A DNA stretch of 27,778 nucleotides, from positions 1-27,778 of IMG/VR virus record IMGVR_UViG_3300030060_005203. The stretch is one strand, 5' to 3'. Source of the stretch: a virus. A model generated the notes under the pieces. It did not search any database. It was not told the origin of the DNA and saw only the letters and a list, made by a program, of their open reading frames with translations. How positions within the stretch are numbered: the first letter of the stretch is position 1; every line of letters starts with the position of its first letter. This document shows, in pieces, positions 1 through 26,992 of the stretch. Position numbers and translations under genes: made by a program.

Positions 1-159
1 GATAAAATGTATTGGTATGATTCAAAGATATTTGATTTGATTTCAAATGGTATGAGTATTTCTGAATTATCAAAAAAATCAGGAATTAGTTATTATTCGT
101 TATATAATAGCTACAAGAATGTAAAAAATATAATTAAAGATAATATAGAATGGGATTAG
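1..159 (+). CDS. Sigma-factor-like protein, C-terminal fragment (cut by window edge)
   Basis: This open frame enters from the left edge and stops at TAG 157-159, giving about 52 residues. It is nearly identical to the last 52 residues of the complete sigma-like protein at 26989-27483, differing only in IIKDNIEWD versus IIKQNIEWH at the tail. It holds the C-terminal helix-turn-helix-like segment (ISELSKKSGISYYSLYNSYK), which in sigma-70 relatives would contact promoter DNA. The stop overlaps the ATG of the next gene at 150. It is either the same gene seen again because the phage genome is circular or permuted and the ends come from different strains, or a true partial duplication. The sequence alone does not decide. 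Confidence 0.7.
   Translation, partial: DKMYWYDSKIFDLISNGMSISELSKKSGISYYSLYNSYKNVKNIIKDNIEWD
1..159 (+). repeat. Imperfect end repeat, left copy (partner 27325-27483)
   Basis: Bases 1-159 align without gaps to 27325-27483 with 6 mismatches (about 96% identity). Two mismatches are silent (AAA/AAG, ATT/ATC); four lie in the last 25 bases and change D to Q, D to H and TAG to TAA. Similarity ends abruptly just after the stop codon. An exact assembly overlap would show no mismatches, so the copies are different alleles or paralogues. Confidence 0.9.
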
Positions 160-4174: not shown

Positions 4175-4859
4175 TATATATTTAGGCAATGCAATAGAGC
4201 TGTCAAAACAAATACAAGATAATAGTATTGATTGTATTATAACATCCCCTCCATATTACAACTCGAGCCACAAATATCAAAGAGGAAATGGTTTCCATTA
4301 TACAGCAGATGTAGGAGAGCCCTTGTATGTTATTGTTGATTTTTTCAAAGAAATAAAGCCAAAACTTAAAGAGGATGGCATAGTTTGCCTTAATTTAGGT
4401 TTTAGTTATGGAGAAACAGGCGTTATGCGACCTTTCGATATAATTAACAGATTGAGGGAAAAAGAAGGATATTTTATAAATGATATAATTATTTGGCATA
4501 AAAACAATCCTATACCTATGAATAAAAGATTGACAAATGCCATTGAGTACATATTTATTTTAAGCAAACATCCTATAGGAAAATATTATACTAATACATA
4601 TACGCATAATGTCTGGAAGTTTCCTGTAGATAAAGGTGGTAGAAATCATAGCGCTGTATTTCCTATTACATTGCCTAAATTATGTTTAGAACACTTTACA
4701 AAAGAAAATGATTTAGTACTTGACCCTTTTATGGGTAGTGGTACCACAGCTTTGGCTTGTACAGAGATGAAGCGTAATTATATAGGTTTTGAAATTAACA
4801 AAGATTATATTGAAGTAGCAAATCAAAGAATTAACACATCTCAAAAAAAGTTATTTTAA
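4161..4859 (+). CDS. DNA methyltransferase, beta-class (TSPPY type)
   Basis: I chose ATG 4161 rather than the in-frame TTG at 4146, because ATG starts dominate here and the protein then begins directly at MKINNIYLGNAIEL, the usual start of this family. The 232-aa product has catalytic TSPPY at residues 28-32 and the AdoMet-binding motif DPFMGSGTT at 188-196, with GFEINKDYIEVANQRI after it. This motif order defines the beta class, which includes N4-cytosine and N6-adenine enzymes; TSPPY leans to N4-cytosine. It is a second modification enzyme near the 3041 gene and probably has a different target site. Confidence 0.85.
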   Translation: MKINNIYLGNAIELSKQIQDNSIDCIITSPPYYNSSHKYQRGNGFHYTADVGEPLYVIVDFFKEIKPKLKEDGIVCLNLGFSYGETGVMRPFDIINRLREKEGYFINDIIIWHKNNPIPMNKRLTNAIEYIFILSKHPIGKYYTNTYTHNVWKFPVDKGGRNHSAVFPITLPKLCLEHFTKENDLVLDPFMGSGTTALACTEMKRNYIGFEINKDYIEVANQRINTSQKKLF

Positions 4860-4869
4860 CGTTATATAA
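4859..4869 (+). promoter_or_regulatory. ACGTTATATAA motif before the packaging genes
   Basis: This is the first of four exact copies of ACGTTATATAA, each at a boundary between gene blocks. Here it starts on the last base of the methyltransferase stop and lies 25 bases before the small terminase ATG (4894), further than at the other sites. Together with the copy at 17642 it shares the longer core TAACGTTATATAA. It is a candidate phage late-promoter element. Confidence 0.6.
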
Positions 4870-4893
4870 TTGATTAATCAATCTTTTTCAATT

Positions 4894-5136
4894 ATGGATA
4901 AAAGGAAATTCAATGGAGGCAAGCGAGAGGGTTCAGGCAGAAAAGCAAAAGCTGAGGAGATAGCACTTATAGAAAGACTCACACCACTTGAGCCTTTGGC
5001 TTTTGATGCTTTACAGAAAGGTTTACAAAAGGGAGATTTTAAATTTGTACAGCTATATTATAATTACGTTGCAGGGAGACCTAGAGAGACAAAAGATATT
5101 CACGTTAATGAAGATGTACCTTTATTTATTGATTAA
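4894..5136 (+). CDS. terS: Terminase small subunit (putative)
   Basis: I start at ATG 4894; an in-frame TTG at 4870 would add residues with no family support and overlap the regulatory motif. The 80-aa product opens MDKRKFNGGKREGSGRKAKA, the basic Gly-rich N-terminus typical of phage small terminase and related DNA-binding proteins, followed by helices (LEPLAFDALQKGLQKGDFKF) and an RPRETKDIHV tail. It would bind the packaging site and hand DNA to the large subunit directly downstream. The stop shares a base with the large subunit start (TAATG), which supports coupling. It is short for the family but has the expected parts. Confidence 0.7.
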   Translation: MDKRKFNGGKREGSGRKAKAEEIALIERLTPLEPLAFDALQKGLQKGDFKFVQLYYNYVAGRPRETKDIHVNEDVPLFID

Positions 5137-6305
5137 TGCAAATTAAAAAAACCTCAGCTCTTAATCAGCTTAGAGAACTTAAGAAAAGAATCAGAATCAT
5201 AAGAGGAGGTAGCTCTGCAGGAAAAACATTTGCAATCATAGCAATACTGATTGACTATGCAATAGTAAACAAAGGCAAAGAAATCAGTATAGTGGCTGAG
5301 TCTATCCCTCATCTACGCAGAGGAGCTTTAAAAGACTTTCTAAACATCCTTAAGGGTCTTAATAGATATGATGATAGAAAGTTCAACAAAAGTACCTTAA
5401 AATACGAATTTAGCACAGGTAGTTACATAGAGTTTTTTAGCACTGATCAGCCTGATAAATTAAGAGGAGCTAGGAGAACAGACTTATTTATCAATGAGTG
5501 TAATAACATTAGCTTTGATTCATACCAACAACTAGCTGTTAGGACTTCTGGCAATATATGGCTAGACTATAATCCTGCTAATATCTTCTGGGTAGATAAG
5601 GAATTGATAGGACAGAAAGATGCTAATTTTATAACGCTAACTTACAAGGATAATGACAGCTTACCTAAATCAATAATCAACGAAATAGAAAAAGCAAAAA
5701 CAAAAGCTAAGACCTCAACTTATTGGGCTAATTGGTGGAGGGTTTATGGCTTAGGTCAAATAGGTAGTTTAGAAGGTGTTTGTATTCCTGACTGGAAAAC
5801 TATTGACATAATTCCAGAAGAGGCTAGATTGCTTTGCTCTGGCTTAGACTTTGGATATTCTGTTGACCCCTCAACAATCATAAGATTATACAAGTGGAAT
5901 CATGCTTATATATTTGATGAGGTGCTTTATAGAAAAGGTATGTTAAATAGAGACCTCAGCTATTTTATAAGACAAAATCAAATCATTGAAAATATCTATG
6001 CTGATAGTGCTGAGCCTAAGTCTATACAAGAGCTAAGAAGCTATGGTCATAAAATATATCCTGTTACAAAAGGCAGAGATTCTGTAGTCTATGGAATCAA
6101 TCTAATAAATCAAAATGAGATATATGTAACTTCTAAGTCAAAGAATCTAATAAGAGAACTACAGGGCTACATTTGGCAAAAGGATAAAGAAGGAAACAAT
6201 CTACAAAAACCTACAGGCACACACCCTGATTGTATTGACGCTGCAAGATACGCTCTCATGATGCAACTAAAGAATCCTAACAGAGGGAATTATGCAATAC
6301 AATAG
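5136..6305 (+). CDS. terL: Terminase large subunit
   Basis: The 389-aa protein is a PBSX/SPP1-like large terminase. The N-terminal ATPase has Walker A GGSSAGKT (residues 24-31) and a Walker B-like TDLFINE around Asp116 to Glu121, followed by a coupling region with WLDYNPA. The C-terminal RNase-H-like nuclease has LDFGY with Asp238, YADSAEP with Asp290, and HPDCIDAARYAL with Asp365/Asp368. It pumps DNA into the prohead using ATP and cuts the concatemer. The length is usual for this branch. It ends just before a regulatory gap containing the second ACGTTATATAA copy. Confidence 0.95.
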   Translation: MQIKKTSALNQLRELKKRIRIIRGGSSAGKTFAIIAILIDYAIVNKGKEISIVAESIPHLRRGALKDFLNILKGLNRYDDRKFNKSTLKYEFSTGSYIEFFSTDQPDKLRGARRTDLFINECNNISFDSYQQLAVRTSGNIWLDYNPANIFWVDKELIGQKDANFITLTYKDNDSLPKSIINEIEKAKTKAKTSTYWANWWRVYGLGQIGSLEGVCIPDWKTIDIIPEEARLLCSGLDFGYSVDPSTIIRLYKWNHAYIFDEVLYRKGMLNRDLSYFIRQNQIIENIYADSAEPKSIQELRSYGHKIYPVTKGRDSVVYGINLINQNEIYVTSKSKNLIRELQGYIWQKDKEGNNLQKPTGTHPDCIDAARYALMMQLKNPNRGNYAIQ

Positions 6306-6326
6306 TCTCTAAAACTTTCCATAATT

Positions 6327-6337
6327 ACGTTATATAA
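6327..6337 (+). promoter_or_regulatory. ACGTTATATAA motif before the tail genes
   Basis: This exact copy of ACGTTATATAA is followed by AT and then the ATG at 6340. It fills most of the 34-base gap between terL and the tail block. If it acts as a -10-like element, transcription would start at or very near the start codon. Confidence 0.6.
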
Positions 6338-6339
6338 AT

Positions 6340-6996
6340 ATGAAAGTAGATTTAGTTGTACCAAATAGTCTAGCTGATATAACTTTAGGACAATATCAAA
6401 AGTTTGTAAAAATATCAGAAAGCAATACAGATGAAAAATTTATATCTATAAAAATGCTTGAGATATTCTGCAAGTTGAAGCTAGAAACAATTATGACAAT
6501 GAAAGCTACAAGCATTAAAACTGTAACAGCAACGCTAACAGAGATGTTCAATGCTAAGCAAGATTTAAAGCATATATTTAGAATGGATGGCATTCAATAT
6601 GGATTTATTCCAAATTTAGAAGATATGACCTTTGGAGAGTATGTTGACCTTGATTCTAATATTTCTGATTTTCAAGAAATACATAAAGCAATGGCTGTAT
6701 TATACAGACCTATCGAAAAGAAATTTAAAGGGCAATACACTATTAAGCCATACGAGGCAAAAGAGGCTGATTTTATGAAAGCTATGCCTATGGATGTTGT
6801 ATTTGGGTCAATGATTTTTTTTTATCATTTAGGGAGCGACTTGTCAAAAGTTATGATGGATTATTTACAACAGGAGGAGAACAGGGAGCTACATACTCAA
6901 CTATTGGAGCTTTCAGCGAAAAATGGGGTTGGTATCAATCAATTTTTGAACTCGCTCAAGGAGATGTTACACAGCTCGAAGATATCGTTAAATTAA
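6340..6996 (+). CDS. Putative tail assembly chaperone (short product)
   Basis: The 218-aa product begins MKVDLVVPNSLADITLGQYQ and has a helical body with MTFGEYVDLDSNISDF and AMPMDVVFGSMIFFYHLGSD. I recall this pattern from flavobacterial phage proteins encoded before the tail genes. Its location upstream of the tape measure and the coding sequence that continues in the -1 frame (6822-7085) fit the G/GT-type chaperones that coat the tape measure during tail assembly. Inside it, nine T bases (6815-6823) form the slippery heptamer T-TTT-TTT in the reading frame. The zero-frame tail ends GVGINQFLNSLKEML plus a few residues. Confidence 0.55.
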   Translation: MKVDLVVPNSLADITLGQYQKFVKISESNTDEKFISIKMLEIFCKLKLETIMTMKATSIKTVTATLTEMFNAKQDLKHIFRMDGIQYGFIPNLEDMTFGEYVDLDSNISDFQEIHKAMAVLYRPIEKKFKGQYTIKPYEAKEADFMKAMPMDVVFGSMIFFYHLGSDLSKVMMDYLQQEENRELHTQLLELSAKNGVGINQFLNSLKEMLHSSKISLN

Positions 6997-7085
6997 ATGT
7001 ACATCAATGTCTTTATGCTTTAACTTATATGAAAGAAAGAGCTGAGGCAGAAAATACATATATGAAAAGTAAAATAAGAAAATGA
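6822..7085 (+). CDS. -1 frameshift extension of the tail assembly chaperone
   Basis: In the -1 frame relative to the 6340 gene there is clear coding potential ending at TGA 7083-7085: GAFSEKWGWYQSIFELAQGD, then NVHQCLYALTYMKERAEAEN. I recognise this KWGWYxSI...LAxGD...QCL pattern from flavobacterial phages. The frame is open from 6771 but contains no ATG before the conserved part, so independent initiation is unlikely. Slippage at T-TTT-TTT (6816-6822) would join 161 zero-frame residues to 87 from this frame, giving about 248 aa. A slip further down, for example near GCG-AAA-AAT around 6912, is an alternative. Coding is well supported; the exact joint is inferred. Confidence 0.65.
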   Translation, partial: LSFRERLVKSYDGLFTTGGEQGATYSTIGAFSEKWGWYQSIFELAQGDVTQLEDIVKLNVHQCLYALTYMKERAEAENTYMKSKIRK

Positions 7086-7204
7086 CAGAATTTATAAATC
7101 ATGTTTTTGGATTATGTGGAGAGCCTCATCTCAACGTATTTACATGTATTATAATTATAGGATTTATAGTATTTACATTTAGAAAAAAAATAGCAAATGA
7201 GTAA
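7082..7204 (+). CDS. 40-aa single-pass membrane micro-protein
   Basis: The frame runs from ATG 7082, overlapping the frameshift stop by 4 bases, to TAA 7202-7204, overlapping the next start by 8. The product begins MTEFINHVFGLCGEPHLNVF, then has a hydrophobic segment (about residues 19-33, rich in Ile and Phe) and a basic RKK end, so it is probably one membrane helix with the tail inside. FGLCGEPH is a motif I recall in flavobacterial phage micro-proteins next to the tail chaperone. Its role is unknown. Confidence 0.65.
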   Translation: MTEFINHVFGLCGEPHLNVFTCIIIIGFIVFTFRKKIANE

Positions 7205-7670
7205 TCAAGGAGTAAGAGGATTTTATCAAATTACAGACACACTAAAAACTAATCTACTTTTAGATGAAAATGTAAACACAGTAACAACAGGAGATATTTT
7301 TGATATTGATTTAGAAAAGCAAACAATCTTTCCATTATCTCATATAGTTGTAAACTCAGTCGAGATACAAGAGCAGGCTTTGTCTTTTAACATTACAGTT
7401 ATGTGCATGGATATTGTAGATGTATCAAAGGATGAAACAACAGATATATTTATAGGCAATAATAATGAACAAGATATACTAAACACTCAGCTAGCTGTAG
7501 CAAATAAACTAATAGCAATACTAAGCAAAGGAACTTTATACAGAGATAAATACCAGCTTGAGGGTACAGCTTCTTGTGAGTTTTTTTATGAAAGATTTGA
7601 AAACCAATTAGCAGGAGTGGCTTGTACTTTTGATGTATTGGTACAAAATGATATAAATTCATGCAGTTAA
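7197..7670 (+). CDS. Putative tail completion/terminator-type structural protein
   Basis: The 157-aa product starts MSNQGVRGFYQITDTLKTNL and has QTIFPLSHIVVNSVEIQEQA and NNEQDILNTQLAVANKLIAI blocks. I recognise these as conserved in flavobacterial phage virion proteins without a precise functional name. Alternating beta strands and one long helix resemble tail-terminator or neck folds. Its place before the gp10-like protein matches the head-tail joining region of many siphoviruses. The end overlaps the next gene by 10 bases. The structural role is likely; the exact role is inferred. Confidence 0.6.
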   Translation: MSNQGVRGFYQITDTLKTNLLLDENVNTVTTGDIFDIDLEKQTIFPLSHIVVNSVEIQEQALSFNITVMCMDIVDVSKDETTDIFIGNNNEQDILNTQLAVANKLIAILSKGTLYRDKYQLEGTASCEFFYERFENQLAGVACTFDVLVQNDINSCS

Positions 7671-8161
7671 AAGAAACTAAAAAAGAGTTAGAAAAGTTTG
7701 CAAAATTTGTAATTAAACAGGCTAGAACAAACCTATCTAAACGTAAGAAAATATCAACAGGTAAATTATACAAATCCTTAGGATTCAAAACCATGCAAGG
7801 AAACAGAGGTGTGAATGTATTTTTTACTATGGAGGATTATGGTACTTTTCAAGATTTAGGAGTAAGTGGTAAAAAAAGAAAATATAAAACACCTTATAGA
7901 TATAAGTCTAAAATGCCACCTTCTAGCGCTTTTAGTGGATGGGTAGTTAGAAAAGGATTGAAAGGTGTAAGAGATGAAAAGGGTAGATTTATCCCTAGAA
8001 AGAGTTTACAGTTTTTGATTGCAAGGTCAATATTTAGAGATGGTATAAAACCCTCTTTATTTTTTACTAGACCTTTTGATTTAGGATTCAGAAAACTGCC
8101 TGAAAAATTACAAGATAAATTTGGAATAGACTTAGAAAATTTAATAGAAACAGATGGCTAA
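7661..8161 (+). CDS. Putative neck/tail completion protein (HK97 gp10-like)
   Basis: The 166-aa protein is strongly basic. It begins with a helix (KKELEKFAKFVIKQARTNLS), then has KLYKSLGFKTMQG and MEDYGTFQDLGVSGKKRKY, the YGxFxDxGvSG pattern typical of gp10-like head-tail joining proteins. After that comes a loop rich in Arg and Lys, and a helix ending in LFFTRPFDLGFRKL. It would help close the connector or attach the tail. It overlaps the genes on both sides by 8-10 bases, within the tail operon that begins at 6340. Confidence 0.6.
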   Translation: MQLKETKKELEKFAKFVIKQARTNLSKRKKISTGKLYKSLGFKTMQGNRGVNVFFTMEDYGTFQDLGVSGKKRKYKTPYRYKSKMPPSSAFSGWVVRKGLKGVRDEKGRFIPRKSLQFLIARSIFRDGIKPSLFFTRPFDLGFRKLPEKLQDKFGIDLENLIETDG

Positions 8162-9119
8162 TATATTATTAAGAAGTCCCTATTATGTAACAGCTACTAC
8201 AGCTTCTCATTTATCAGCTCAACTAGCTTTGACGATTGATGGGACTTTACGATACACAATACTAAAAAACGCAACAAATAATAGAACAGTATTTGAGATA
8301 GCAACGCTAGTAAGAGATTATGTAGATATAACTTTTGCAGGTACAACAATAGTTGCTGACACAGTTGCAATATCTTATGTACTTACAACCTTTACAGCTG
8401 TAGATGGTGGAGGCACAGGCACAGCTCAAAGTGCTGTAACTCACACAGGTTTTGATGGCTATTCTAAATTTGAGCAAGGAGCAAACTTTGAACTAGCTAC
8501 GACTCAAGACCCTACCTATGTTGGAGATTGTGGAGGAGATGGCACAATATACGCTCCTGATAATACAGCTGGAAAGCTCATAGGATTTTCAGATGATGCA
8601 ACCCCTGTTGCGAGTGTTTTTAGTTATTCTACCTCTGCAACTTCAATAGATACTCCAGCTAGAACTTACAATATCATCAGAGTTTGTAATCCAAAATACA
8701 ACAATGTAAAAATGGTTTATCTAAATAGATTTGGTCAGTTTCAGGAGTTTTATTTCTTTCTAAAAAATACAGAATCATTTACTGTAAAATCAGAAAAATT
8801 TAAGCGTAATATATTTACATCCTCCTCATCTAATTATAGCATATACGACCATCAGGATAAGGTGTTTAATAAAAATGGTAGAACTAGGGTTACACTAAAC
8901 ACAGAATATATTATAGAGTGTTACAATGAAGTCATACAAGATATATTATTAAGCGAGTATCTTTGGATAGAGTTTACTCAAGCGAATGACGCTAAAACTT
9001 GGAGACCTTGTAGTATCGTAACAAACTCTCTTACATTCAAAACGTCAGTAAATGACAGGCTTACACAATATACAATACAAGTAGAATACACCAACGAAAT
9101 AATAAATAATATTATTTAA
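8154..9119 (+). CDS. Tail structural protein (321 aa), distal-tail candidate
   Basis: The protein begins MANILLRSPYYVTATTASHL and is rich in Thr, Ser, Tyr and Asn with a beta-strand pattern throughout, as expected for a virion protein. The middle carries a Gly/Asp-rich stretch (YVGDCGGDGTIYAPDN) and a conserved-looking RTYNIIRVCNPKYNNVKMVY. It lies next to the 726-aa gene and in front of the tape measure, all in one overlapping operon. Similar paired proteins occur in flavobacterial phages. It may form part of the baseplate or tail tip. No enzymatic motif is visible. Confidence 0.55.
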   Translation: MANILLRSPYYVTATTASHLSAQLALTIDGTLRYTILKNATNNRTVFEIATLVRDYVDITFAGTTIVADTVAISYVLTTFTAVDGGGTGTAQSAVTHTGFDGYSKFEQGANFELATTQDPTYVGDCGGDGTIYAPDNTAGKLIGFSDDATPVASVFSYSTSATSIDTPARTYNIIRVCNPKYNNVKMVYLNRFGQFQEFYFFLKNTESFTVKSEKFKRNIFTSSSSNYSIYDHQDKVFNKNGRTRVTLNTEYIIECYNEVIQDILLSEYLWIEFTQANDAKTWRPCSIVTNSLTFKTSVNDRLTQYTIQVEYTNEIINNII

Positions 9120-11299
9120 TGAAGCGTGAAGTACAATTATTTATTTCAGATACTAGAGTTGACTTATTTAAAGATGAGACAATCTCCATAACAGACACTA
9201 TTCAAAATGTATCTGACATAAGCAAAATATTTACACCTTTCTCAAAACAATTTAACCTACCTGCCTCACAAACCAACAATAAACTATTCAAGCATTATTA
9301 TAATTTTGATATACAAGATGGATTTGATGCTAGATTTACAGTATCTGCAAGAATAGAAATCAATCATGCACCATTCAAAAATGGTAAGTTGAGGCTAAGT
9401 GGTGTTACAATGAAAAACAATTTGCCTCATACATACAAGGTAGTTTTTTTTGGCGAACCAAATGACATCAAAGATATTTTTGCTGATGAGGATTTAAGCT
9501 CTCTAAATGGTCTTTCTACTTATGATATATCTTATGCTACATCTGACTTTTTAAATGCTTTTAAAACAGGCTTACAAAGCGCAGGAGTAGATGCTACAAA
9601 TACATCAAATAGAAATATAGTAGTGCCTTTGATTTCGCTAAACACTTATTATACTTATGATTCAGGTACAAATAGACTTGACAATGTAAACTTTACAGAT
9701 TTGAGAAAACAGTTAAAACCTGCAATCAAAGTAAAGAGAATCATTGAAGCTATTGAAACTCAATACTCAGTAAATTTTAATATGACAGACCTACACTCTG
9801 ACAGCTTGATACTTGCAGAGAATGACGATCAGATTACAGATGAGCAAGGTAATGAGCTAGTAACAGAGGATGCCTCAGCAGAGTTTCAAAGTTTCTTTGG
9901 GTCTGATATGTTTGATGAGTTGTATTTATGGCTACACAGAGAATCAAGTCCTGTAACAGAGCCAGAGGCTACGACAGAGACTTTTGGTGTAGATGAAACT
10001 ACTAGAAGTATAAAGCTAGGATTTTCTGATTTTACCTATGTAACAGGGGGTAGTGGAGATACTCTTACAGCTAATAAACTTGTAGTAAACAAAGGCGAGA
10101 CTTTTGGAATCAGGCTAGTACTCGACCCAAATCAAACAAACAATACAGGAGAAATAATTGTAAAAGACAAAACAACAAATGAATTATTATTTTACAGAGA
10201 TTCTGTTGCTTTCAATAACAGCTCTAACCTATCAGCTCCTATTGTAGATTTAACAAGTGGAGAACTTGATTCTAGGACTTATGATTTAGAGTTTAGAATC
10301 AATTGTCAAATAGGTGTAACATTCGCAGCCTTGAATCCTGCCTTAGTAATTACAAAGGACAGCACAACTCAGTTTGAGTATTCAAATAGTGGATTCAGTT
10401 TAGGTTCAAATATTTTTATACAAGATTATTTGCCTCAAATGAAAGTTATTGATTTCTTGACAGGTTTGTTTAAAATGTTTAATCTAGTTGCTTACAAAAA
10501 ATCAATACAATCAGAAACTATTAGAGACGCTTTTGTAGATACAATCATGGTGCAAACTTTTGATGATTTCATGACTCAAGGCGTATCAAGAGATATTACA
10601 GAATATGTAAATATTAATCAGTCTAACATAGACAGACCTGTCCCTTACAATCAAGTCAATTTTGAGTTCTCTCCAGCAGTAACACAAACTAGCATACGAT
10701 TTAGAAATCAATTTGCTCAAGCATTTGGAGATTTAAAATATTCAGCTCCTGAAAAATATGATGGTAAAAGTTTTGACCAGATTGTACCTTTTGAGAGAAG
10801 CGTATTAATAAATCTTATAGACTCATCTGGAGACGTTACAAATAATATTTTAGGATGGTGGGTAGATGATTCAGGTAATACAATTCTAGGCGCACCATTT
10901 TTATTTTTTAACAGAGTCATAACTAACACTACATATCCTGTTACAGCTACAAGTATAACTACTTACAATGCGCCCTCAAGTGTTTCTAGTGATAGTAACC
11001 ATACGCTTAATTTCAATGCTGAGTATGACGAATTTGCAAGAGAGGTAAATCTTAATAGTTTGTTTAGTAGATTTTATCAACAGTACATTGTGCAAACATT
11101 TAATAAAAATACTAGAATCGTAAAAGTAAAAGCAAAACTGCCTGTAAGTTTTATTTTAAATTACAGCGTAAATGATACAATAGTAATAGGAGACCAGAGC
11201 TATTATATAAACAGTATAAAAATAAATCTTAATTCTGGAGATTCTGACTTAGATTTAATCGTAAAAAAACAATCATATACTAACAGCGTACTAACATGA
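9119..11299 (+). CDS. Large tail/baseplate protein (726 aa)
   Basis: This is the largest tail protein apart from the tape measure. It opens MKREVQLFISDTRVDLFKDE and continues IQNVSDISKIFTPFSKQFNL, then PASQTNNKLFKHYYNFDIQD. I recall this block at the N-terminus of large virion proteins in flavobacterial and crAss-like phages. The rest is Asn/Thr/Asp-rich beta structure with DYLPQMKVIDFLTGLFKMFN near residue 440. It is likely a tail hub or tip protein that may carry receptor-binding parts. The start shares a base with the upstream stop (TAATG), and its end forms an ATGA overlap with the small gene at 11296. Confidence 0.6.
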   Translation: MKREVQLFISDTRVDLFKDETISITDTIQNVSDISKIFTPFSKQFNLPASQTNNKLFKHYYNFDIQDGFDARFTVSARIEINHAPFKNGKLRLSGVTMKNNLPHTYKVVFFGEPNDIKDIFADEDLSSLNGLSTYDISYATSDFLNAFKTGLQSAGVDATNTSNRNIVVPLISLNTYYTYDSGTNRLDNVNFTDLRKQLKPAIKVKRIIEAIETQYSVNFNMTDLHSDSLILAENDDQITDEQGNELVTEDASAEFQSFFGSDMFDELYLWLHRESSPVTEPEATTETFGVDETTRSIKLGFSDFTYVTGGSGDTLTANKLVVNKGETFGIRLVLDPNQTNNTGEIIVKDKTTNELLFYRDSVAFNNSSNLSAPIVDLTSGELDSRTYDLEFRINCQIGVTFAALNPALVITKDSTTQFEYSNSGFSLGSNIFIQDYLPQMKVIDFLTGLFKMFNLVAYKKSIQSETIRDAFVDTIMVQTFDDFMTQGVSRDITEYVNINQSNIDRPVPYNQVNFEFSPAVTQTSIRFRNQFAQAFGDLKYSAPEKYDGKSFDQIVPFERSVLINLIDSSGDVTNNILGWWVDDSGNTILGAPFLFFNRVITNTTYPVTATSITTYNAPSSVSSDSNHTLNFNAEYDEFAREVNLNSLFSRFYQQYIVQTFNKNTRIVKVKAKLPVSFILNYSVNDTIVIGDQSYYINSIKINLNSGDSDLDLIVKKQSYTNSVLT

Positions 11300-11442
11300 T
11301 AAAAGATATAATTGAGTTATTGCCTTTAGCGACAGGCGAAACAGAAAATATAAGAATAGCAAAGGGAAAATATAAGCTCCCTGAAACATTTAAAGAGGGT
11401 TACAAAAAATTTAAAAATGAGATAAAATGGCAAAAAAAGTAA
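11296..11442 (+). CDS. 48-aa hypothetical protein before the tape measure
   Basis: The frame runs from ATG 11296, forming ATGA with the upstream stop, to TAA 11440-11442. It overlaps the tape measure start (11427) by 16 bases. The product starts MIKDIIELLPLATGETENIR and ends basic (KFKNEIKWQKK). No family is recognised. Its tight coupling on both sides argues it is translated, perhaps mainly to carry ribosomes into the tape measure gene. Confidence 0.55.
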   Translation: MIKDIIELLPLATGETENIRIAKGKYKLPETFKEGYKKFKNEIKWQKK

Positions 11443-13424
11443 CAGTTCAATTACAAACAGTAGGAGCAGACTCTGCTGTAAAAGATATTGAAAAGGTTAA
11501 TGGCAGTTTAGACAAACTAAACACAAACCAGAAACAAACTACGAAAAGCTCTGAAACACTTACAACTAGAGTGTCAGAAAATGGAGGAGCTATGGGTCTC
11601 TTGAATCAGCTTACAGGAGGTATGGCTCAAACTTTTAAAGATGCTGGAGAGGCTGTAGGTTTAACCAGCAAAAGTCTTAAAGGACTTAAAGGTGCTATAC
11701 TAGCAACAGGTATAGGTCTTCTAGTAATAGGTTTATCAGCTCTTATAGCAAACTTCAGAGAGGTTAAAATATTTTTAGGTATAATAAACCCTCAACAGGA
11801 GAGATTCAACGAAGTTATGGAGGAGGCAAATGTTGCTGCAGTTGATGCAGCGAGAGGTCTTGAAACATTGAGAGATATTGTACTAGATACCTCAAGAAGT
11901 GAGGAAGTTAGAAACGAAGCACTTAGACAATTATCAGGCACAGTAACTGAGCTGAATGGATTGACCATAGATAGTGCTGGAGCCTTAGACCAAGTTACAG
12001 CCTCAACAGGTCCTTATATTACTGCGACTATGGCTAGAGCTAAGGCAGATGCTTTTGCAAAAATAGTAGCTGAGGAGGAGGCAAAATTAGTAAAACAAAG
12101 AATAGCTAATGAAGCTGAATTAGGCGAATTATTCCAAAAAAGATTTGACCTTGAGGCAGGAAATTTATATGGAAAAGAAAGAAAATTAGCTGGCACAAAT
12201 GCACAAATAGAAAAACTTACTAATAGCTATGGAGAGCAAGAAGCTATTATCAGTGGTTTAAAAGATGTATTTCAAGATTTGACAGCAGAGGCTCTTGAGG
12301 CAGAGGCTGCTCTCAACAGCACAGAGAAAAAAGTTAAGAAAACAGGAAGCTCTAGCGAAACGACAGAACAAAAAGCTGCTAAGATGGCTCGTGCTTTGGA
12401 GGAGATTAGAAAAGGTACAATCATAGGACCTCAGGAGGAGAGAGACGAACAGATAAATCAAATCAACGCACACTACGACAAATTACTCGAAAACGCTAAA
12501 CTATATTTGGAGGAGGATTCAGAGGTATTCGTGCAGTTAACAACAGCTAGAGATAAAAAGATTTCAGATTTAAGACAGAAATTTGCAGATGAGGATGCAG
12601 CAGCAGCAGATGCAGAATTACAAAAGAAAATACAAAAAAAGATTGAAGCAAATACTCTAGAAACTTCAGATGAGGTAGCAAGAAGAGAGAGATTACTAGC
12701 TGCAAAACAATTTGATTTGTCTCTTGAGGAGGACCCCATGAAAAAAATAGAAATAGAAAGGGAGATACTCGAGCTAGAGAAAGAGCTAGCACTAGAAAGA
12801 GTTAACTTTGAAATTGAGACATTTGAAGAAGGTACTCAAGCTCACACAGATGCTGTAAATAGAAAAATAGCTCTTGAAGAAAAATTTTCAAGACAAAGCA
12901 CTAAATTGACTGATGATACAAGAAAGACAGAAACTGCAATCAATAAAAAAGGAGCGAAAGAGAGAGAAGAAGCTATACAAGAAGCATTTAAAAATATTAC
13001 TTCCATTGTAGGAGCTTCAAGTAAATTTGGTAAAGGTATTTCAGCAGCTAACGCTATAAGAAGTACTTATGCAGGTGCAACAAAAGCTTTAGAGCAAGGT
13101 GGTATATTTGGGTTTATACAGGCAGCTGCAATTATAGCCTCTGGTTTTAAAAATGTAAAAAGTATTTTAGCAACTGAAGACCCAGCACCTCCAGCAGAAT
13201 TAGGAGCCTCCACTCCAGCAGGTGGAGCTGAGCCTACTGTACCACCAACCCCAGAGGCACAATCACTACCTCCTACATTTACAACAGTAGGAGCAAGTGG
13301 TATCAATCAAATAGCTGATGTATTAGGAGAGTCAAAACCTCAAAGAGCCTTTGTAGTTAGTGGAGATGTAAGCACAGCTCAAGAGCTTGAGAGAAACATT
13401 GTTCAATCAGCTAGTTTAGGATAA
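11427..13424 (+). CDS. Tape measure protein
   Basis: The 665-aa protein has a tape-measure pattern: an N-terminal VTVQLQTVGADSAVKDIEKV segment, a hydrophobic stretch at about residues 89-110 (LATGIGLLVIGLSALIANF), then very long Glu/Lys/Ala-rich coiled-coil regions, a second Ala/Gly-rich region (SKFGKGISAANAIRSTYAGA), and a Pro-rich tail near residues 585-616. Such proteins set tail length at roughly 1.5 angstrom per residue, so a tail near 100 nm is expected. The hydrophobic segments may enter the host membrane during DNA ejection. It closes the tail operon and is followed by a short gap with the next ACGTTATATAA copy. Confidence 0.85.
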   Translation: MAKKVTVQLQTVGADSAVKDIEKVNGSLDKLNTNQKQTTKSSETLTTRVSENGGAMGLLNQLTGGMAQTFKDAGEAVGLTSKSLKGLKGAILATGIGLLVIGLSALIANFREVKIFLGIINPQQERFNEVMEEANVAAVDAARGLETLRDIVLDTSRSEEVRNEALRQLSGTVTELNGLTIDSAGALDQVTASTGPYITATMARAKADAFAKIVAEEEAKLVKQRIANEAELGELFQKRFDLEAGNLYGKERKLAGTNAQIEKLTNSYGEQEAIISGLKDVFQDLTAEALEAEAALNSTEKKVKKTGSSSETTEQKAAKMARALEEIRKGTIIGPQEERDEQINQINAHYDKLLENAKLYLEEDSEVFVQLTTARDKKISDLRQKFADEDAAAADAELQKKIQKKIEANTLETSDEVARRERLLAAKQFDLSLEEDPMKKIEIEREILELEKELALERVNFEIETFEEGTQAHTDAVNRKIALEEKFSRQSTKLTDDTRKTETAINKKGAKEREEAIQEAFKNITSIVGASSKFGKGISAANAIRSTYAGATKALEQGGIFGFIQAAAIIASGFKNVKSILATEDPAPPAELGASTPAGGAEPTVPPTPEAQSLPPTFTTVGASGINQIADVLGESKPQRAFVVSGDVSTAQELERNIVQSASLG

Positions 13425-13442
13425 ACAAAATACAAATGATAG

Positions 13443-13453
13443 ACGTTATATAA
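13443..13453 (+). promoter_or_regulatory. ACGTTATATAA motif before the head genes
   Basis: This exact copy of ACGTTATATAA is followed by AT and ATG 13456, the same arrangement as at 6327. It occupies the 31-base gap between the tape measure and the prohead protease. Confidence 0.6.
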
Positions 13454-13455
13454 AT

Positions 13456-15036
13456 ATGAAAATAGTAGAACTAATTTTAGGAGATGATGAGTTAACAGGA
13501 ATTGAAGCAATTTCAATCGTAGAAAATCCAGCAATTGAAGAGGATTTTATAGCTCTTAAAAATGAAATAGTTAAACTTGCAGAAGTTGACAAAGAAAAAA
13601 GAATCTTGATAGGAGCTTTGTTAATTCCTAATAAACCTATTTTCAGAAAAAAAGGAGATGAAAGTTATTATATTTACTTTTCAAAAGAAACAGTAGAGAA
13701 AGCCTCACAATTATATCTTACAAAAGGCAATCAATCAAAAGCTACGTTAGAACATCAACACTCAATAAATGGTTTAACTTTAGTTGAATCATGGCTAGTT
13801 GAGGATGATGTACACGATAAATCCAGAAAGTATGGATTAAGTGTGCCTGTTGGTACGTGGATGGGTACAGTCAAAGTAAACAATGAGGACATATGGAATA
13901 ACTATGTAAAAACAGGAAAGGTCAAAGGGTTTTCTATTGAAGGTTACTTTGCAGATAAAATGGAAAGACCTAAAGAGCCTGTAAATGATTTTGAGGATAT
14001 TGAAGAGGCAGAAGCCTTAGAAATGCTTTCTGTAATTCGTAGTATAATCAACTATGATAAAAGATTGAAGAGTGGCAAAAGAAGAGAATTAGAATCTTAC
14101 ACAGATTATCCTGATGCTGTAAAAAACAATGCTAAAAAAGGTATTGAACTAAACGAAAAGGTAAACAATAAGTGTGCTACTCAGGTTGGTAAGATACGAG
14201 CTAAACAACTTGCTCAAGGACAGCCTATATCAAAAGAGACAATCAAAAGAATGTACTCCTTTTTAAGTAGAGCTGAGGAGTATTACGATGAAAGTGATAG
14301 TGAAGCCTGTGGTACTATAAGCTATTTACTTTGGGGTGGCAAAGCTGGTAAGAGATATGCAGAAAAAAAGCTAAGAGAATTTGGAGAGCTTGAACTAGCT
14401 TCAATGGTAGTAGATGATGAGTTCGCAATCATTGATGACAGACTAGCCTACTCTACTCAAGAGAAAGCTGAAGAGATGGCAAAGAATATAGGCTGTCAAG
14501 GATTTCACACTCATGAGCTTGAGGGCAAAACATGGTATATGCCATGCGAGTTTCACGTCAAAGAAGAGATGAAAAAATGTCCTAAGGGTTTTAAAAAAGT
14601 TTATGGTAAGTGTGTTAAGATGGCAGAAGTTGGACCAAGAGGAGGTATCAGAAAATCCCCTAAGGCTCCAAAATCAGGCACACCAAATCCAAAACCAAAA
14701 GGCAAAGGCACAGCCAAAGGAGATGCCTCAACAGGCAGAGGTGCTAAGGTATCAAAAAAAGATGAAGCAACTCTACAAAAGAAATCTGATGATTTCAACG
14801 AAAGATATAAAAAGAAACTAGGATATGGGGTTACAGTAGGTAAGCTCAAGGCAGTATTCCAAAGGGGATTAGGAGCTTTCAATGTCTCTCACAGTCCACG
14901 TATAAAATCCCCATCTGCTTGGGCTTTTGCTAGAGTAAATGCGTTTCTTTATTTAGTAAAGAATGGCAGACCTCAAAACAAAAAATATACAGGAGATAAT
15001 GATTTACTCCCTAAAGGACATCCTAAAAATAAATAG
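13456..15036 (+). CDS. Prohead protease (XkdF-like) with fused C-terminal domains
   Basis: The N-terminal 170 residues fit XkdF-type phage serine proteases: ISIVENPAIEEDFIAL, LIPNKPIFRK, then LEHQHS (His100/His102) and KGFSIEGYF (Ser160), the probable catalytic His and Ser. A middle domain (about 215-310) reads YTDYPDAVKNNAKKGIELNE through EACGTISYLLWGGKAGKRYA. A Cys-containing linker (CPKGFKKVYGKCVKM) and a Pro/Lys/Gly-rich disordered stretch lead to a C-terminal block (GYGVTVGKLKAVFQRGLGAF ... WAFARVNAFLYLV) that I associate with DUF5824. The protease would process scaffold and capsid proteins encoded just downstream. At 526 aa it is far longer than a plain protease. The function of the fused domains is unknown. 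Confidence 0.75.
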   Translation: MKIVELILGDDELTGIEAISIVENPAIEEDFIALKNEIVKLAEVDKEKRILIGALLIPNKPIFRKKGDESYYIYFSKETVEKASQLYLTKGNQSKATLEHQHSINGLTLVESWLVEDDVHDKSRKYGLSVPVGTWMGTVKVNNEDIWNNYVKTGKVKGFSIEGYFADKMERPKEPVNDFEDIEEAEALEMLSVIRSIINYDKRLKSGKRRELESYTDYPDAVKNNAKKGIELNEKVNNKCATQVGKIRAKQLAQGQPISKETIKRMYSFLSRAEEYYDESDSEACGTISYLLWGGKAGKRYAEKKLREFGELELASMVVDDEFAIIDDRLAYSTQEKAEEMAKNIGCQGFHTHELEGKTWYMPCEFHVKEEMKKCPKGFKKVYGKCVKMAEVGPRGGIRKSPKAPKSGTPNPKPKGKGTAKGDASTGRGAKVSKKDEATLQKKSDDFNERYKKKLGYGVTVGKLKAVFQRGLGAFNVSHSPRIKSPSAWAFARVNAFLYLVKNGRPQNKKYTGDNDLLPKGHPKNK

Positions 15037-15038
15037 GT

Positions 15039-15158
15039 ATGCCTCGCAAGGTTGTAAATGTTTTTAGAAAAAATAAAAGAAAATCACATCCTCACTCAAA
15101 AAATGCAAGTGATGGTCAGAATGGTTTTAAAAAAAAATATAAAGGTCAAGGAAGATGA
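15039..15158 (+). CDS. 39-aa basic micro-protein (KGQGR family)
   Basis: The frame runs from ATG 15039 to TGA 15156-15158. The product MPRKVVNVFRKNKRKSHPHS plus a tail ending KKYKGQGR is more than one third Lys/Arg and has no acidic residues apart from one Asp. I recall KxYKGQGR-ending micro-proteins beside head genes in Bacteroidota phages. It starts 2 bases after the protease stop and ends in an ATGA overlap with the next micro-gene. A DNA-binding or internal capsid role is possible but unproven. Confidence 0.65.
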   Translation: MPRKVVNVFRKNKRKSHPHSKNASDGQNGFKKKYKGQGR

Positions 15159-15292
15159 AAAAAACTTTTAAAACACCTAGTAAAACAAGTCCAAAGGGAG
15201 GCAGAAGAGCTTGTCTATGTGATGATAAAGAAACGTATTCAATCAAATGCTGTAAAGGCAATATCATGAATCAAGGTATTGGCAGTATTTGA
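15155..15292 (+). CDS. 45-aa Cys-rich micro-protein (NQGIGSI end)
   Basis: The frame runs from ATG 15155 to TGA 15290-15292, coupled to the preceding micro-gene. It has a basic N-terminus (MKKTFKTPSKTSPKGGRR) followed by ACLCDDKETYSIKCCKGN and ends NQGIGSI. Four Cys arranged C-x-C...C-C could bind one zinc ion. The pattern RxCLCxD...YSxKCC.G..xxQGIGxI is one I recall in Bacteroidota phages and prophages next to head genes. It may be a minor capsid or DNA-binding protein. Function not established. Confidence 0.7.
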   Translation: MKKTFKTPSKTSPKGGRRACLCDDKETYSIKCCKGNIMNQGIGSI

Positions 15293-15314
15293 AAATACAA
15301 ATAGTAATTATTAA

Positions 15315-15323
15315 TCGTTATAA
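15315..15323 (+). promoter_or_regulatory. Degenerate ACGTTATATAA-like motif (TCGTTATAA) before the scaffold gene
   Basis: TCGTTATAA lies in the 46-base gap 15293-15338, about 16 bases before ATG 15339. It resembles the four exact motif copies but lacks the leading AC and one TA step. The upstream string AAATACAAAT is shared with the gap before 13443. It is a weaker candidate for the same regulatory element. Confidence 0.3.
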
Positions 15324-15338
15324 GAAATATATATTAAC

Positions 15339-15920
15339 ATGAAATCAACACAAATTTTAGAAAAAATCAAAACCTTTTTAGGAGAGGAAACTTCTGATGA
15401 GGTATTAGTAGAGTTAGCTCAGGCTAAGCTCGAAAATGGAACAGTTTTAGAAGCTGAGGCTTTTGAAGCTGGTAAAGAAATTTTTATTGTATCTGAGGAT
15501 GATAGAGTAGCTGTCCCTGTAGGAGAGTACATGATGGAGGATGGTAGAAAACTTATTGTCAAAGAAGAGGGAATCATTGGAGAAATCAAAGCAAAAGAAG
15601 AAGAGCCATCTGTAAAAGAAGAGGATAGAACTGATGCTAAATTAGAAGAGGAAAAAAAAGAAGAAAAGGAAGACATGAAAAAATATGTTAGAAAAGAAGA
15701 GTTCCAGACAGCTATTGATGAAATCAAAGATATGATAAACAAACTTCAAGAAGAGAAAGAAGAGAAGAAAGAAGAGATGAGCCAGAAGCTAAGCGCAGCT
15801 CCAGCATCAGCTCCTATCACTCACAATCCTGAAGTTAGAAGTAATACTAAGGTTCAATTTGGAACAAACAGAAGAGAAACGACCTTAGATAGAGTAATGA
15901 AAAAATTAACAAATAATTAA
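15339..15920 (+). CDS. Putative capsid scaffolding protein
   Basis: The 193-aa product is directly upstream of the major capsid gene. Its N-terminal third has VELAQAKLENGTVLEAEAFE and DDRVAVPVGEYMMEDGRKLI, a block I recall from Bacteroidota phage proteins in this position. The middle and C-terminal parts are Glu/Lys-rich, nearly continuous helix and coiled coil (EEFQTAIDEIKDMINKLQEE), with a basic C-terminus (RETTLDRVMKKLTNN) such as scaffolds use to bind the capsid shell. It would guide capsid assembly and then be removed by the protease. Assigned by position and composition. Confidence 0.65.
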   Translation: MKSTQILEKIKTFLGEETSDEVLVELAQAKLENGTVLEAEAFEAGKEIFIVSEDDRVAVPVGEYMMEDGRKLIVKEEGIIGEIKAKEEEPSVKEEDRTDAKLEEEKKEEKEDMKKYVRKEEFQTAIDEIKDMINKLQEEKEEKKEEMSQKLSAAPASAPITHNPEVRSNTKVQFGTNRRETTLDRVMKKLTNN

Positions 15921-15931
15921 AATTAAATAAA

Positions 15932-16867
15932 ATGCCAAATCCAACAATTACAGCAAGTAGTTATGCAGGAGAATTTGCAGGCAAATATATTGCAGCAAGT
16001 TTATTAACAGCAAAAACTTTAGATGATGCTGCTATAACTATTTTGCCAAATGTAAAATTTAAGGCTGCTATGAAAGTAGGAGCTTTTTCAAATCTAGTAA
16101 GAAGTGCTGATTGTGATTTTGATTCAACGACATCTGGACTTACACTTACAGAAAAGGTTATAACTCCTACTGAGTTACAAGTAAACCTACAAATATGTAA
16201 AAAAGAATTACACGCAGACTGGGAAGCTGCTCAAATGGGCTTTAGTGCTTTCGATAGTTTACCTCCTTTGTTCTCTGACTTTGTTATCGCTAGAGTAGCA
16301 GCAGAGGTTGCAAGTGCAACTGAAACTTCTATTTGGGATGGTGCTGCAGGCGAGGGAAATTTTGATGGCTTTAGAGCTTTAGCTTTAGCTGATGGTACTG
16401 TAAATGATGTTACAGGTGCTGATGCAGGAGCAGTTACAGCTTCAAATGTAGTCGAAAAATTAGGAAACATTGTAGATGCTATTCCAAGTGGTGTTTATGG
16501 TGCTGATGATTTATACATCTATTTATCTCAAAATATGTTTAAGGCTTATGTAAGAGCTTTAGGTGGTTTTGGAGCTAATGGTCTAGGTGCTGCTGGTGTT
16601 AACAATCAAGGTACAAACTTCTACAATGGAGGAGAGTTAATGTTTGATGGAGTAAAACTATATCCATCTTCAGGATTTAGAGACAACTGTGCAATTGCAG
16701 CAAGAGCTTCAAACTTATACTTTGGTACTGGTTTATTAAATGACAGAAACGAAGTCAAAGTTATTGATATGTCAGATATTGATGGCTCTCAAAATGTAAG
16801 AGTAGTCATGAGATATACAGCAGGAGTTCAGATAGGAGTAGGTGCAGACGTTGTACTTTACGACTAA
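15932..16867 (+). CDS. Major capsid protein
   Basis: The 311-aa protein follows the scaffold by 11 bases and precedes a strong terminator. It is rich in Ala, Gly, Asp and Thr with few Cys and has features of HK97-like capsid proteins: a helical N-terminus, a long TPTELQVNLQICKKELHADW segment, a spine-helix region (FVIARVAAEVASATETSIWD), and a late block SDIDGSQNVRVVMRYTAGVQ typical of the domain that ends such proteins. GAAGEGNFDGFRALALADG is a pattern I recall in flavobacterial phage capsids. No signal or enzyme motif is present. Context makes this assignment strong. Confidence 0.8.
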   Translation: MPNPTITASSYAGEFAGKYIAASLLTAKTLDDAAITILPNVKFKAAMKVGAFSNLVRSADCDFDSTTSGLTLTEKVITPTELQVNLQICKKELHADWEAAQMGFSAFDSLPPLFSDFVIARVAAEVASATETSIWDGAAGEGNFDGFRALALADGTVNDVTGADAGAVTASNVVEKLGNIVDAIPSGVYGADDLYIYLSQNMFKAYVRALGGFGANGLGAAGVNNQGTNFYNGGELMFDGVKLYPSSGFRDNCAIAARASNLYFGTGLLNDRNEVKVIDMSDIDGSQNVRVVMRYTAGVQIGVGADVVLYD

Positions 16868-16886
16868 GAGAAATAATTAACTAATC

Positions 16887-16911
16887 AAAGGGGAGGTTAA
16901 CCCTCCCTTTT
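16887..16911 (+). terminator. Rho-independent terminator after the capsid gene
   Basis: AAAGGGGAGG at 16888-16897 can pair with CCTCCCTTTT at 16902-16911 around a TTAAC loop, with the right arm ending in T residues. The T run is short, so some read-through into the tail tube gene is likely. It would separate strong capsid expression from the downstream genes. Confidence 0.75.
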
Positions 16912-16926
16912 AAATAAATAAATAAT

Positions 16927-17451
16927 ATGGCTTGTATATTAACAAAAGGTAGAGCTTTACCATGTAAGAGTGGAGTAGGTGGCTTAAAAGCTGTTTTCTT
17001 TGTAGATTTTGGAGGCTTAGGAGATTTAACAAAATCAGCAGGAGAAGTATCAGCTTTTGGAGGCAGTCCAACACTTATGAAATTCGATATTAAAGGTAAT
17101 TCAACTCTCGATACAACTGTAACCTCATCAAGAGAAAATGGTACAACTTTTTATTCATCTAGCCTAGTTCTAAATTTGACGTTTCAGGAAAAGCAAACAT
17201 CAGAAGAAATTAAACTTCTTGCTATTGCTAGACCTCAAATTATAGTTCAAGATTACAACGAAAATTTCTTTTTATTAGGAGAGATTCATGGGTGTGAGCT
17301 TGAATCTGGTACATTTAGTTCTGGAGCTGGAATGGGTGATATGTCTGGGTACTCGTTGACATTTACAACAGCAGAGACTGACCCTCCATTATACGTTCAG
17401 AAATCTGTCATGGATGCTGCTAGTGAGGGTACACAAATAACACCTAACTAA
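16927..17451 (+). CDS. Major tail tube protein (putative)
   Basis: The 174-aa product begins MACILTKGRALPCKSGVGGL and continues AVFFVDFG, with SSRENGTTFYSSSLVLNLTF in the middle and GMGDMSGYSLTFTTAETDPP near the end. I recognise this family from flavobacterial phages, where it is a major virion protein with a beta-rich tail-tube-like pattern. It lies between the capsid and portal genes and is bracketed by terminators on both sides (16887-16911 and 17517-17548), fitting a very abundant product with its own transcript control. No gene for a contractile sheath was found, so a siphovirus tail is likely. Confidence 0.65.
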   Translation: MACILTKGRALPCKSGVGGLKAVFFVDFGGLGDLTKSAGEVSAFGGSPTLMKFDIKGNSTLDTTVTSSRENGTTFYSSSLVLNLTFQEKQTSEEIKLLAIARPQIIVQDYNENFFLLGEIHGCELESGTFSSGAGMGDMSGYSLTFTTAETDPPLYVQKSVMDAASEGTQITPN

Positions 17452-17516
17452 AAATAAATTAGTATATTTACAATACACTTTTAATTTTTCATAATAAGAG
17501 TTAGTTTTGTTTTTGA

Positions 17517-17548
17517 GGGGATAGATTTTTTTCTATCCCTTTTTTTTT
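17517..17548 (+). terminator. Strong Rho-independent terminator
   Basis: GGGATAGA (17518-17525) and TCTATCCC (17532-17539) form a perfect 8-bp stem around six T, followed by nine T (17540-17548). It ends the capsid/tail-tube transcript. This is the clearest terminator in the window. Confidence 0.9.
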
Positions 17549-17593
17549 GTATATTGCTCAAGAGTAGTAAATAAGTTTTTTCATTTGGGAAAG

Positions 17594-17621
17594 GAGTCTG
17601 TAAATACAGGCTCTTTTTTTT
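17594..17621 (+). terminator. Second Rho-independent terminator
   Basis: GAGTCTGT (17594-17601) pairs with ACAGGCTC (17606-17613), with one T-G wobble, around AAAT, followed by eight T. It comes only about 45 bases after the previous terminator, so it either backs it up or ends a short transcript that begins between them. Confidence 0.85.
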
Positions 17622-17641
17622 GTACAAAAAATAAACTATTA

Positions 17642-17652
17642 ACGTTATATAA
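17642..17652 (+). promoter_or_regulatory. ACGTTATATAA motif before the portal block
   Basis: This exact copy is followed by GT and ATG 17655, directly after a double terminator. Transcription must restart here for the portal block to be expressed, which is strong context for a promoter. The upstream bases (ATTA) match those before other copies. Confidence 0.65.
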
Positions 17653-26089: not shown

Positions 26090-26992
26090 ATGCTAATAAA
26101 CTACGACCAACATATCAATAAATTAAATGACTATCGAAAAGGCAAAATACAGAAAGCATACTCTTTAGGCAATACTGAATTTGACGAAGCGTTTAGACTT
26201 GTAAAAGGGCATTTATGTTTTATCTTAGGTCATAACAATGTAGGTAAGACTCATTTTACTTTTTATCTTATGCTTTTGTATGCAATCAAACATGGTATTA
26301 AGTATCTAGTTTTTTCGTCTGAGAATGACCCATATCAACTAATCAAAAAACAAATACAATTCATTCAGGGTAAACCTTTAAACAAGATTGAGGATTCTGA
26401 TTATAAAAAGTCTTTAGAATTTGTAAAAGAGCATTTTCAGTTTGTAGATACAAATAGACAATATACTTATAAAGAGCTTTTACAATTAGCTGAATCAGTA
26501 AAAGAGGAATGGGATTACGATGTCTTACTTATTGACCCAATAAACTCTCTTAGAAAAGATTTAAGAAATACTAATGGCTATGAGTATAATTATGAACAGC
26601 TTACAGATATAAGAATATTTTGCAAAAAATATGATATTGCAGTGTGGATTTGCGCTCATGCAGTTACAGAGGCTCTGAGGCGTAAGCATGGAGCATCTCA
26701 TGAAATGGCAGGTCAAGTACAGCCTCCTAGTGCTGGAGATTCAGAGGGTGGTGCTGTCAATAGCAATAGAGCTGATGAAATGATATGTATTCACAGGTAC
26801 ACATCCTGTCCAAATTCATGGATGTATACTAGAATGTACACGCTTAAGGTAAAAGAAATATCTTTAGGCTTCAAGCCTACAAGTTATGAAAGTCCTTTAA
26901 TGTTTAAATCAGTTTTGAATAACGTAGGATTTGAGCTATCTGGTAAAAACTTAGTAACATACAAAACCAAAAAACAGCTAAAAGCATTATGA
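26090..26992 (+). CDS. DnaB/RecA-type replicative ATPase (helicase-like)
   Basis: The 300-aa protein has Walker A GHNNVGKT at residues 47-54 in LCFILGHNNVGKTHFTFYLM, a SSENDPYQLIKKQ sensor strand, and a Walker B strand YDVLLIDPINSL with Asp149, then DIAVWICAHAVTEALRRKHG. These features belong to the RecA/DnaB (KaiC-like) ATPase family. A conserved Gly/Ser/Asp region (QPPSAGDSEGGAVNSNRADE) follows. It would unwind DNA at the phage replication fork or load other proteins. No primase or DNA polymerase is visible, so these may come from the host. Its start abuts the terminator at 26064-26089, and its end overlaps the sigma-like gene by 4 bases. Confidence 0.75.
   Translation: MLINYDQHINKLNDYRKGKIQKAYSLGNTEFDEAFRLVKGHLCFILGHNNVGKTHFTFYLMLLYAIKHGIKYLVFSSENDPYQLIKKQIQFIQGKPLNKIEDSDYKKSLEFVKEHFQFVDTNRQYTYKELLQLAESVKEEWDYDVLLIDPINSLRKDLRNTNGYEYNYEQLTDIRIFCKKYDIAVWICAHAVTEALRRKHGASHEMAGQVQPPSAGDSEGGAVNSNRADEMICIHRYTSCPNSWMYTRMYTLKVKEISLGFKPTSYESPLMFKSVLNNVGFELSGKNLVTYKTKKQLKAL

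Follow-up and report, generated by a model that had tools for sequence, protein, structure and literature searches.

Phage-encoded sigma factors that act on bipartite late promoters are already known, and the closest in logic to the system described here is gp47 of Salmonella phage 7-11 (PMC8948821). This late sigma factor, which has region 4 homology, uses a bipartite late promoter (GTAAtg-16-aCTA) placed before late units, with transcription starting 6–9 bp from the promoter element, a distance also reported for the phiEco32 factor (PMC8948821). The latter, gp36, redirects host RNA polymerase to middle and late promoters but relies on a single element (tAATGTAtA) without a -35 and lacks region 4 homology (PMC8948821). 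T4 late promoters pair an AT-rich -10 with the phage sigma-like factor gp55, have no -35 and require the sliding clamp. ECF (group 4) sigma factors, such as E. coli sigmaE and Mtb SigH/SigL, have a two-domain architecture, and their promoters generally carry a CGT-type -10, a spacer of ~14–16 and a -35 of the AAC type. The system proposed here resembles that of 7-11 in its phage-encoded factor with region 4 homology, its bipartite promoters before late units and its predicted start distance. It differs in that the promoter sequences are unrelated and the host of 7-11 is enterobacterial, and PMC8948821 does not mention leaderless geometry. Like phiEco32 and T4 it would employ a phage sigma or sigma-like factor, and as in T4 the -10 is AT-rich, but it has a -35 and its sequence differs from the T4 promoter; with ECF promoters it shares the CGT-type -10 and the spacer, the -35 here being TRCAAA. 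The full-text literature searched, which did not cover subscription papers, contained no account of promoters of this kind in Bacteroidota phages.

The analyzed DNA is a 27,778-nucleotide stretch (hereafter the window) of a 28,052-base IMG/VR virus record, in which terminase, portal, protease and capsid genes are present. It contains four exact copies of the 11-mer ACGTTATATAA (4859–4869, 6327–6337, 13443–13453 and 17642–17652), all on the + strand, with no exact match on the - strand. In 500 dinucleotide shuffles of the window, exact ACGTTATATAA occurred on average 0.008 times (maximum 1), confirming the repeat and the positions given in a preliminary description made from the sequence alone. 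When two mismatches were allowed there was no excess (22 vs 17), and the signal is therefore carried by exactness and position. In the copies at 6327, 13443 and 17642, ATG comes after an interval of exactly two bases, as that description had also stated for three cases; at 4859, TTGATTAATCAATC comes next and the better start is ATG 4894. The variant near 15315 reads ATCGTTATAAGA. Near-copies at 97 and 27421 were considered as internal promoters and rejected as coding coincidences, as they lie inside the sigma-factor reading frame and encode conserved SLYN residues for which relatives use other codons.

The 11-mer accounts for no more than the -10 half of an element in two parts, whose second and equally conserved half, a -35 of the form TRCAAAWW in relatives, the preliminary description had missed. 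The full element, TRCAAAWW - 14/15 nt - CGTTATATAA - 2/3 nt - ATG, spans ~38 nt. Its conserved blocks are separated by a fixed distance (14 or 15, invariant in any one phage), which satisfies the spacing criterion for a bipartite sigma-dependent promoter. A TRCAAAWW-like half lies 14 nt upstream of CGTTAT at four of the five window sites, in weaker form (CTCAAAAA) at 4859; at 6327 the -35 half is only a poor CTAAAA. The proposed promoters (P1–P5) and associated features are as follows.

4838–4869, + strand: P1, terS-terL unit; -35-like ATCTCAAAAA at 4838–4847, -10 CGTTATATAA at 4860–4869; PWM score 18.2.
4870–4893, + strand: predicted short terS leader, headed by the palindrome TTGATTAATCAA; translation likely starts at ATG 4894.
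6305–6337, + strand: P2, tail gene unit (ATG 6340); weak -35 CTAAAA, strong -10 CGTTATATAA at 6328–6337.
13422–13453, + strand: P3, protease gene (ATG 13456); -35 TAAACAAAAT, -10 CGTTATATAA at 13444–13453; PWM score 22.4; conserved in relatives.
15294–15325, + strand: P4, scaffold-major capsid unit (ATG 15339); -35 AATACAAATA, -10 CGTTATAAGA at 15316–15325; PWM score 18.2.
17515–17550, + strand: first terminator-like hairpin, after the 16927–17451 gene.
17594–17621, + strand: terminator-like hairpin and T-run directly upstream of P5, recognized by sequence.
17621–17652, + strand: P5, pre-portal and portal unit (ATG 17655); -35 TGTACAAAAA, -10 CGTTATATAA at 17643–17652; PWM score 23.9.
26989–27483, + strand: ECF-type sigma factor, proposed reader of P1–P5, identified by TIGR02937, Foldseek and co-variation with promoter type.

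P4 is atypical, with -10 CGTTATAAGA and an ATG 23 nt from the C. The P1 site also precedes terS in relatives G001, G031 and G045 and, with lower scores, in G069 and G071. At the position of its leader palindrome, TTGATTAAWCAATM is kept in the distant relatives G001, G031, G069 and G071. Since the palindrome (4870–4881) lies at the predicted terS transcript start, it is a possible operator or packaging-related site. As a separate observation, the interval between the two terminators (17550–17621) could encode a small RNA of ~60–70 nt and carries a TATATTGC box similar to the -7 element of the host.

Relatives were found via the portal gene (79 loci), and the motif was built from 103 upstream regions, comprising protease, scaffold and pre-portal genes from the 79 related viral contigs together with the window terS and tail sites. 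The bipartite element was present in 100 of these 103 regions, its -10 being CGTTATATA or a lineage variant (CGATATA, TGATATA, CTATATA or TTTATATA), usually followed by 2 or 3 nt and ATG. Promoters of one phage have a common -10 variant and spacer, which is what recognition by a single factor should produce. Across 21 longer records the motif model gave 63 sense sites and 1 antisense site, against ~1.7 expected by chance, and nearly all sense sites lay before terS, tail, protease, scaffold or pre-portal genes. A score of at least 14 was reached at 48 of 50 protease, scaffold and pre-portal starts, whereas no start in 35 other gene families, capsid and portal genes included, scored that high; tail gene starts had a good -10 and a poor -35 (CTAAAA in the window, G001, G045 and G016). 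The element is thus restricted to the genes that open five late units (terS, tail gene, protease, scaffold and pre-portal), so that strand-specific placement at transcription-unit starts, the second criterion for a bipartite promoter, is also met.

Protease, scaffold and pre-portal genes served to train the motif model, and the counts at those genes are therefore partly circular. Eight records fetched via the sigma gene (G045–G071) and the cultured phage P12024L served as an independent check and agreed with the model. No clear element was found at late genes of G073, whose sigma factor is only 31% identical. Conservation, bipartite structure and strand and position bias are thereby shown. They bear out the earlier claim that the motif sits at boundaries of late gene blocks, and the motif search in relatives proposed at that stage found both its position before the same genes and its ATG spacing conserved. 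The earlier reading also had transcription restart near 17642 after two terminators; P5 adjoins the T-run of the upstream terminator-like hairpin, and a T-run precedes the element of the orthologous pre-portal gene in 65 of 68 relatives.

The open reading frame at 26989–27483 encodes 164 aa with sigma regions 2 and 4. It matched NCBIfam TIGR02937 (sigma70-ECF) along its whole length (residues 5–160, E 9.6e-8), although its 31.8 bits fall short of the curated cut-off of 42.9; the same model was matched by 39 of 45 family members, and Pfam Sigma70_r2 by half. The AF2 model had a mean pLDDT of 84 and a pTM of 0.46, the low pTM probably stemming from uncertain relative placement of the two domains. 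The top PDB matches in Foldseek were ECF sigma factors, region 2 superposing on that of sigmaE at 2.4 Å, and identity to ECF (group 4) factors, which unlike this protein are not phage-encoded, was 10–16%. With a full-length match to the ECF model, regions 2 and 4 only, a length within ~160–180 aa and the ECF fold, the protein meets the ECF criteria, and a homologue is encoded in all 18 near-complete related records examined. We conclude that it is an ECF-type sigma factor, so that the suspicion of the preliminary description about the protein at 26989 was right; its binding to core RNA polymerase and to the promoters is inferred, with only indirect support from co-variation.

Several observations concern the surroundings of this gene. 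Its 3' end (27325–27482) is repeated at window positions 1–158, 97% identical over 158 bp before diverging, which could mean either that sigma is present in a second copy or that a permuted contig end holds strain variants. The slot directly after it (27474–27776; L080, L096 and L109) differs in gene content among relatives and appears to be a variable insertion site, holding an HNH endonuclease in the window and other unrelated-looking short genes elsewhere. In G013 (L092), a second, divergent sigma-like gene lies beside the main one.

To compare promoters with the sigma factor, we expressed promoter difference as the seven -10 bases plus the spacer, for which 16 genomes were usable. Promoter difference correlated with sigma divergence (r 0.72), and in partial Mantel tests this held given portal, MCP or protease divergence (r 0.72, 0.62 and 0.72, respectively; p 0.0002 each). 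Once sigma was accounted for, portal, capsid and protease divergence explained nothing of the promoter difference in these 16 genomes. Individual genomes illustrate the pattern: G004, with a portal 73% and a sigma factor 42% identical to those of the window, has different promoters (CGATATA, spacer 15), whereas G045, with a portal only 61% but a sigma factor 77% identical, has promoters that agree. Partial Mantel tests can be over-confident and the sample is only 16 genomes; co-occurrence and co-variation of element and sigma gene are shown, and it is likely that promoter variants track the phage sigma gene and not the neighboring portal, capsid or protease genes.

Portal relatives were present in flavobacterial and Polaribacter MAG bins and in one Bacteroidia bin. 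In the Flavobacteriaceae bin (G083), three of four element matches fell on the phage contig; the Polaribacter bin (G084) had no element matches (control 9), and the larger Bacteroidia bin had 9 against 16 for the control. The element therefore seems to be phage-specific in these three bins, a small sample. Among cultured phages, only Nonlabens phages P12024L and P12024S (Inhavirus) were found to encode this sigma factor, as a distant homologue annotated Sigma-70 region 2. They share with the window a related portal, a small pre-portal gene, the ECF-like protein and the promoter geometry, but their -10 is CGTTAATA, their sigma factor ~26–28% identical and their portal 33–34% identical. In P12024L, ACAA, ~14 nt and CGTTA precede seven genes; at six of these the C and the A of ATG are 12 nt apart.

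The distance from the -10 C to the A of ATG was exactly 12 nt in 39 of 63 sites and 12–16 nt in 52 of 63, compared with 1.2% at random positions. Measured from the A of ATG, CGTTAT thus occupies -12 to -7, which would place the RNA start on the start codon or no more than ~4 nt away; a count of 6 bp past CGTTAT lands +1 on that A, and an RNA that is leaderless or has a leader of at most ~4 nt is therefore predicted. In most units the start is likely to lie at the ATG or 1–4 nt before it, a prediction from spacing in the absence of mapped 5' ends. For terS, where 24 nt separate element and ATG, a short leader of ~22 nt is probable, and the window scaffold site (15316) probably gives one of ~11 nt because its ATG is 23 nt from the C; both rest on an inferred start site. 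The earlier proposal of initiation at or near the ATG thus has strong comparative support, with the correction that terS (4859 copy) and the window scaffold are predicted to have leaders. In the hosts, leaders are the rule: in F. johnsoniae 87% of predicted leaders exceed 10 nt and most flavobacterial transcripts are leadered (PMC6847099), and in B. thetaiotaomicron 3.7% of 5' UTRs are shorter than 10 nt (PMC7366714).

We consider it likely, with a probability of roughly 0.8, that the element is the late promoter of a flavobacterial tailed-phage family and is read by the phage ECF-type sigma factor, the late-promoter role suggested earlier now having strong comparative support. The factor would be made from the early/DNA-replication region and then join host RNA polymerase, region 4 binding the -35 TRCAAAWW and region 2 the -10 CGTTATATA; no binding data exist, and sigma-DNA contact and late timing are inferred. 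Each structural-gene unit (terS-terL, tail, protease, scaffold-capsid and pre-portal-portal) would be transcribed from its own promoter. The tail, protease and pre-portal units, and scaffold in relatives, would yield leaderless or near-leaderless mRNAs in hosts that do not use Shine-Dalgarno sequences, terS retaining a short leader; leaderless translation is likewise inferred. Against this reading stand the poor tail-gene -35, the atypical window scaffold site and the mostly leadered flavobacterial transcripts. A search of phage records for early promoters of the TAnnTTTGC type returned mostly coding matches and no clear early class.

Among the alternatives, the phage might borrow a host promoter type, read by a primary or ECF host sigma factor, the phage protein having another role. 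The -10 does resemble ECF promoters generally, and Bacteroidota hosts have many ECF sigma factors (PMC7366714). We regard this as unlikely: the host primary -7 box TAnnTTTG is absent from the element, whose consensus is CGTTATATA; what matches the two flavobacterial bins contain lie almost entirely on the phage contig, and the Bacteroidia bin shows no excess over control; and variants of the element follow the phage sigma gene, not neighboring genes.

A second alternative keeps the promoter but has transcription start further upstream, or the RNA trimmed, leaving leaders of 5–20 nt. It draws on the leaders at the window terS and scaffold, on the ATG spacing of 12 to 16 nt between lineages and on the fact that the start distance of a new sigma factor is not known. 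It too is improbable, given that a start 6–8 bp after the -10 core, as in phiEco32 and 7-11 (PMC8948821), falls on or just before the A of ATG, and initiation any earlier would run into the -10 box.

If the element were instead a signal for translation initiation carried by the RNA (A/T-rich, Kozak-like or an enhancer), its place right next to ATG would be explained, and Kozak-like contexts rich in A are used at flavobacterial starts (PMC6847099). This reading is very unlikely, as the element is missing at all 35 other gene families, extends over ~38 nt in two blocks at fixed spacing, stands 24 nt from the ATG at terS and, before the pre-portal gene, comes straight after a terminator-like T-run, a point at which transcription has to begin anew. 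The preliminary description had kept this alternative, which fails as a general signal. A T4-type late promoter (TATAAATA at -10, sliding-clamp coupled, without a -35), suggested by TATAAATA in two window copies as correctly described, is all but excluded by the strong -35, by the lack of strand bias of TATAAATA in relatives (116 forward vs 110 reverse, hence no sense enrichment) and by P12024L, which retains CGTTA but not TATAAATA.

With the phage-sigma promoter as the preferred reading, three things appear to be new: this family of sigma factors and promoters in phages of Bacteroidota, the concerted way in which it varies between lineages, and the placement of the promoter relative to the start codon. 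We lean, by a narrow margin, towards a bolder version in which a widespread marine flavobacterial phage family relies for most late expression on an ECF-type sigma factor of its own that is diversifying rapidly. With promoters joined to start codons, virion proteins would then come from leaderless mRNAs, a mode of translation rare in the host, and CGTTATA, CGATATA, CTATATA and TTTATATA (spacer 14 or 15) would mark lineage-specific, possibly mutually exclusive sigma/promoter pairs. The phage-sigma reading gives an abundant, poorly studied ocean virus group a concrete transcription programme. It also offers Bacteroidota, in which regulated promoters are few, sigma factors and promoters that occur as natural pairs, and with P12024L or P12024S on Nonlabens there is a cultured phage in which leaderless translation during infection can be put to the test.

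Two further records carry related features. The distant relative G077 (L207, L208), with a divergent sigma factor, has a different word, TTTCCTTTnnATAGTAT, before late-type genes, in one case directly before ATG, possibly representing another sigma/promoter pair. In G004 (L173), the pre-portal promoter and gene start are duplicated identically, near 4651 and again ~3.8 kb downstream near 8440.
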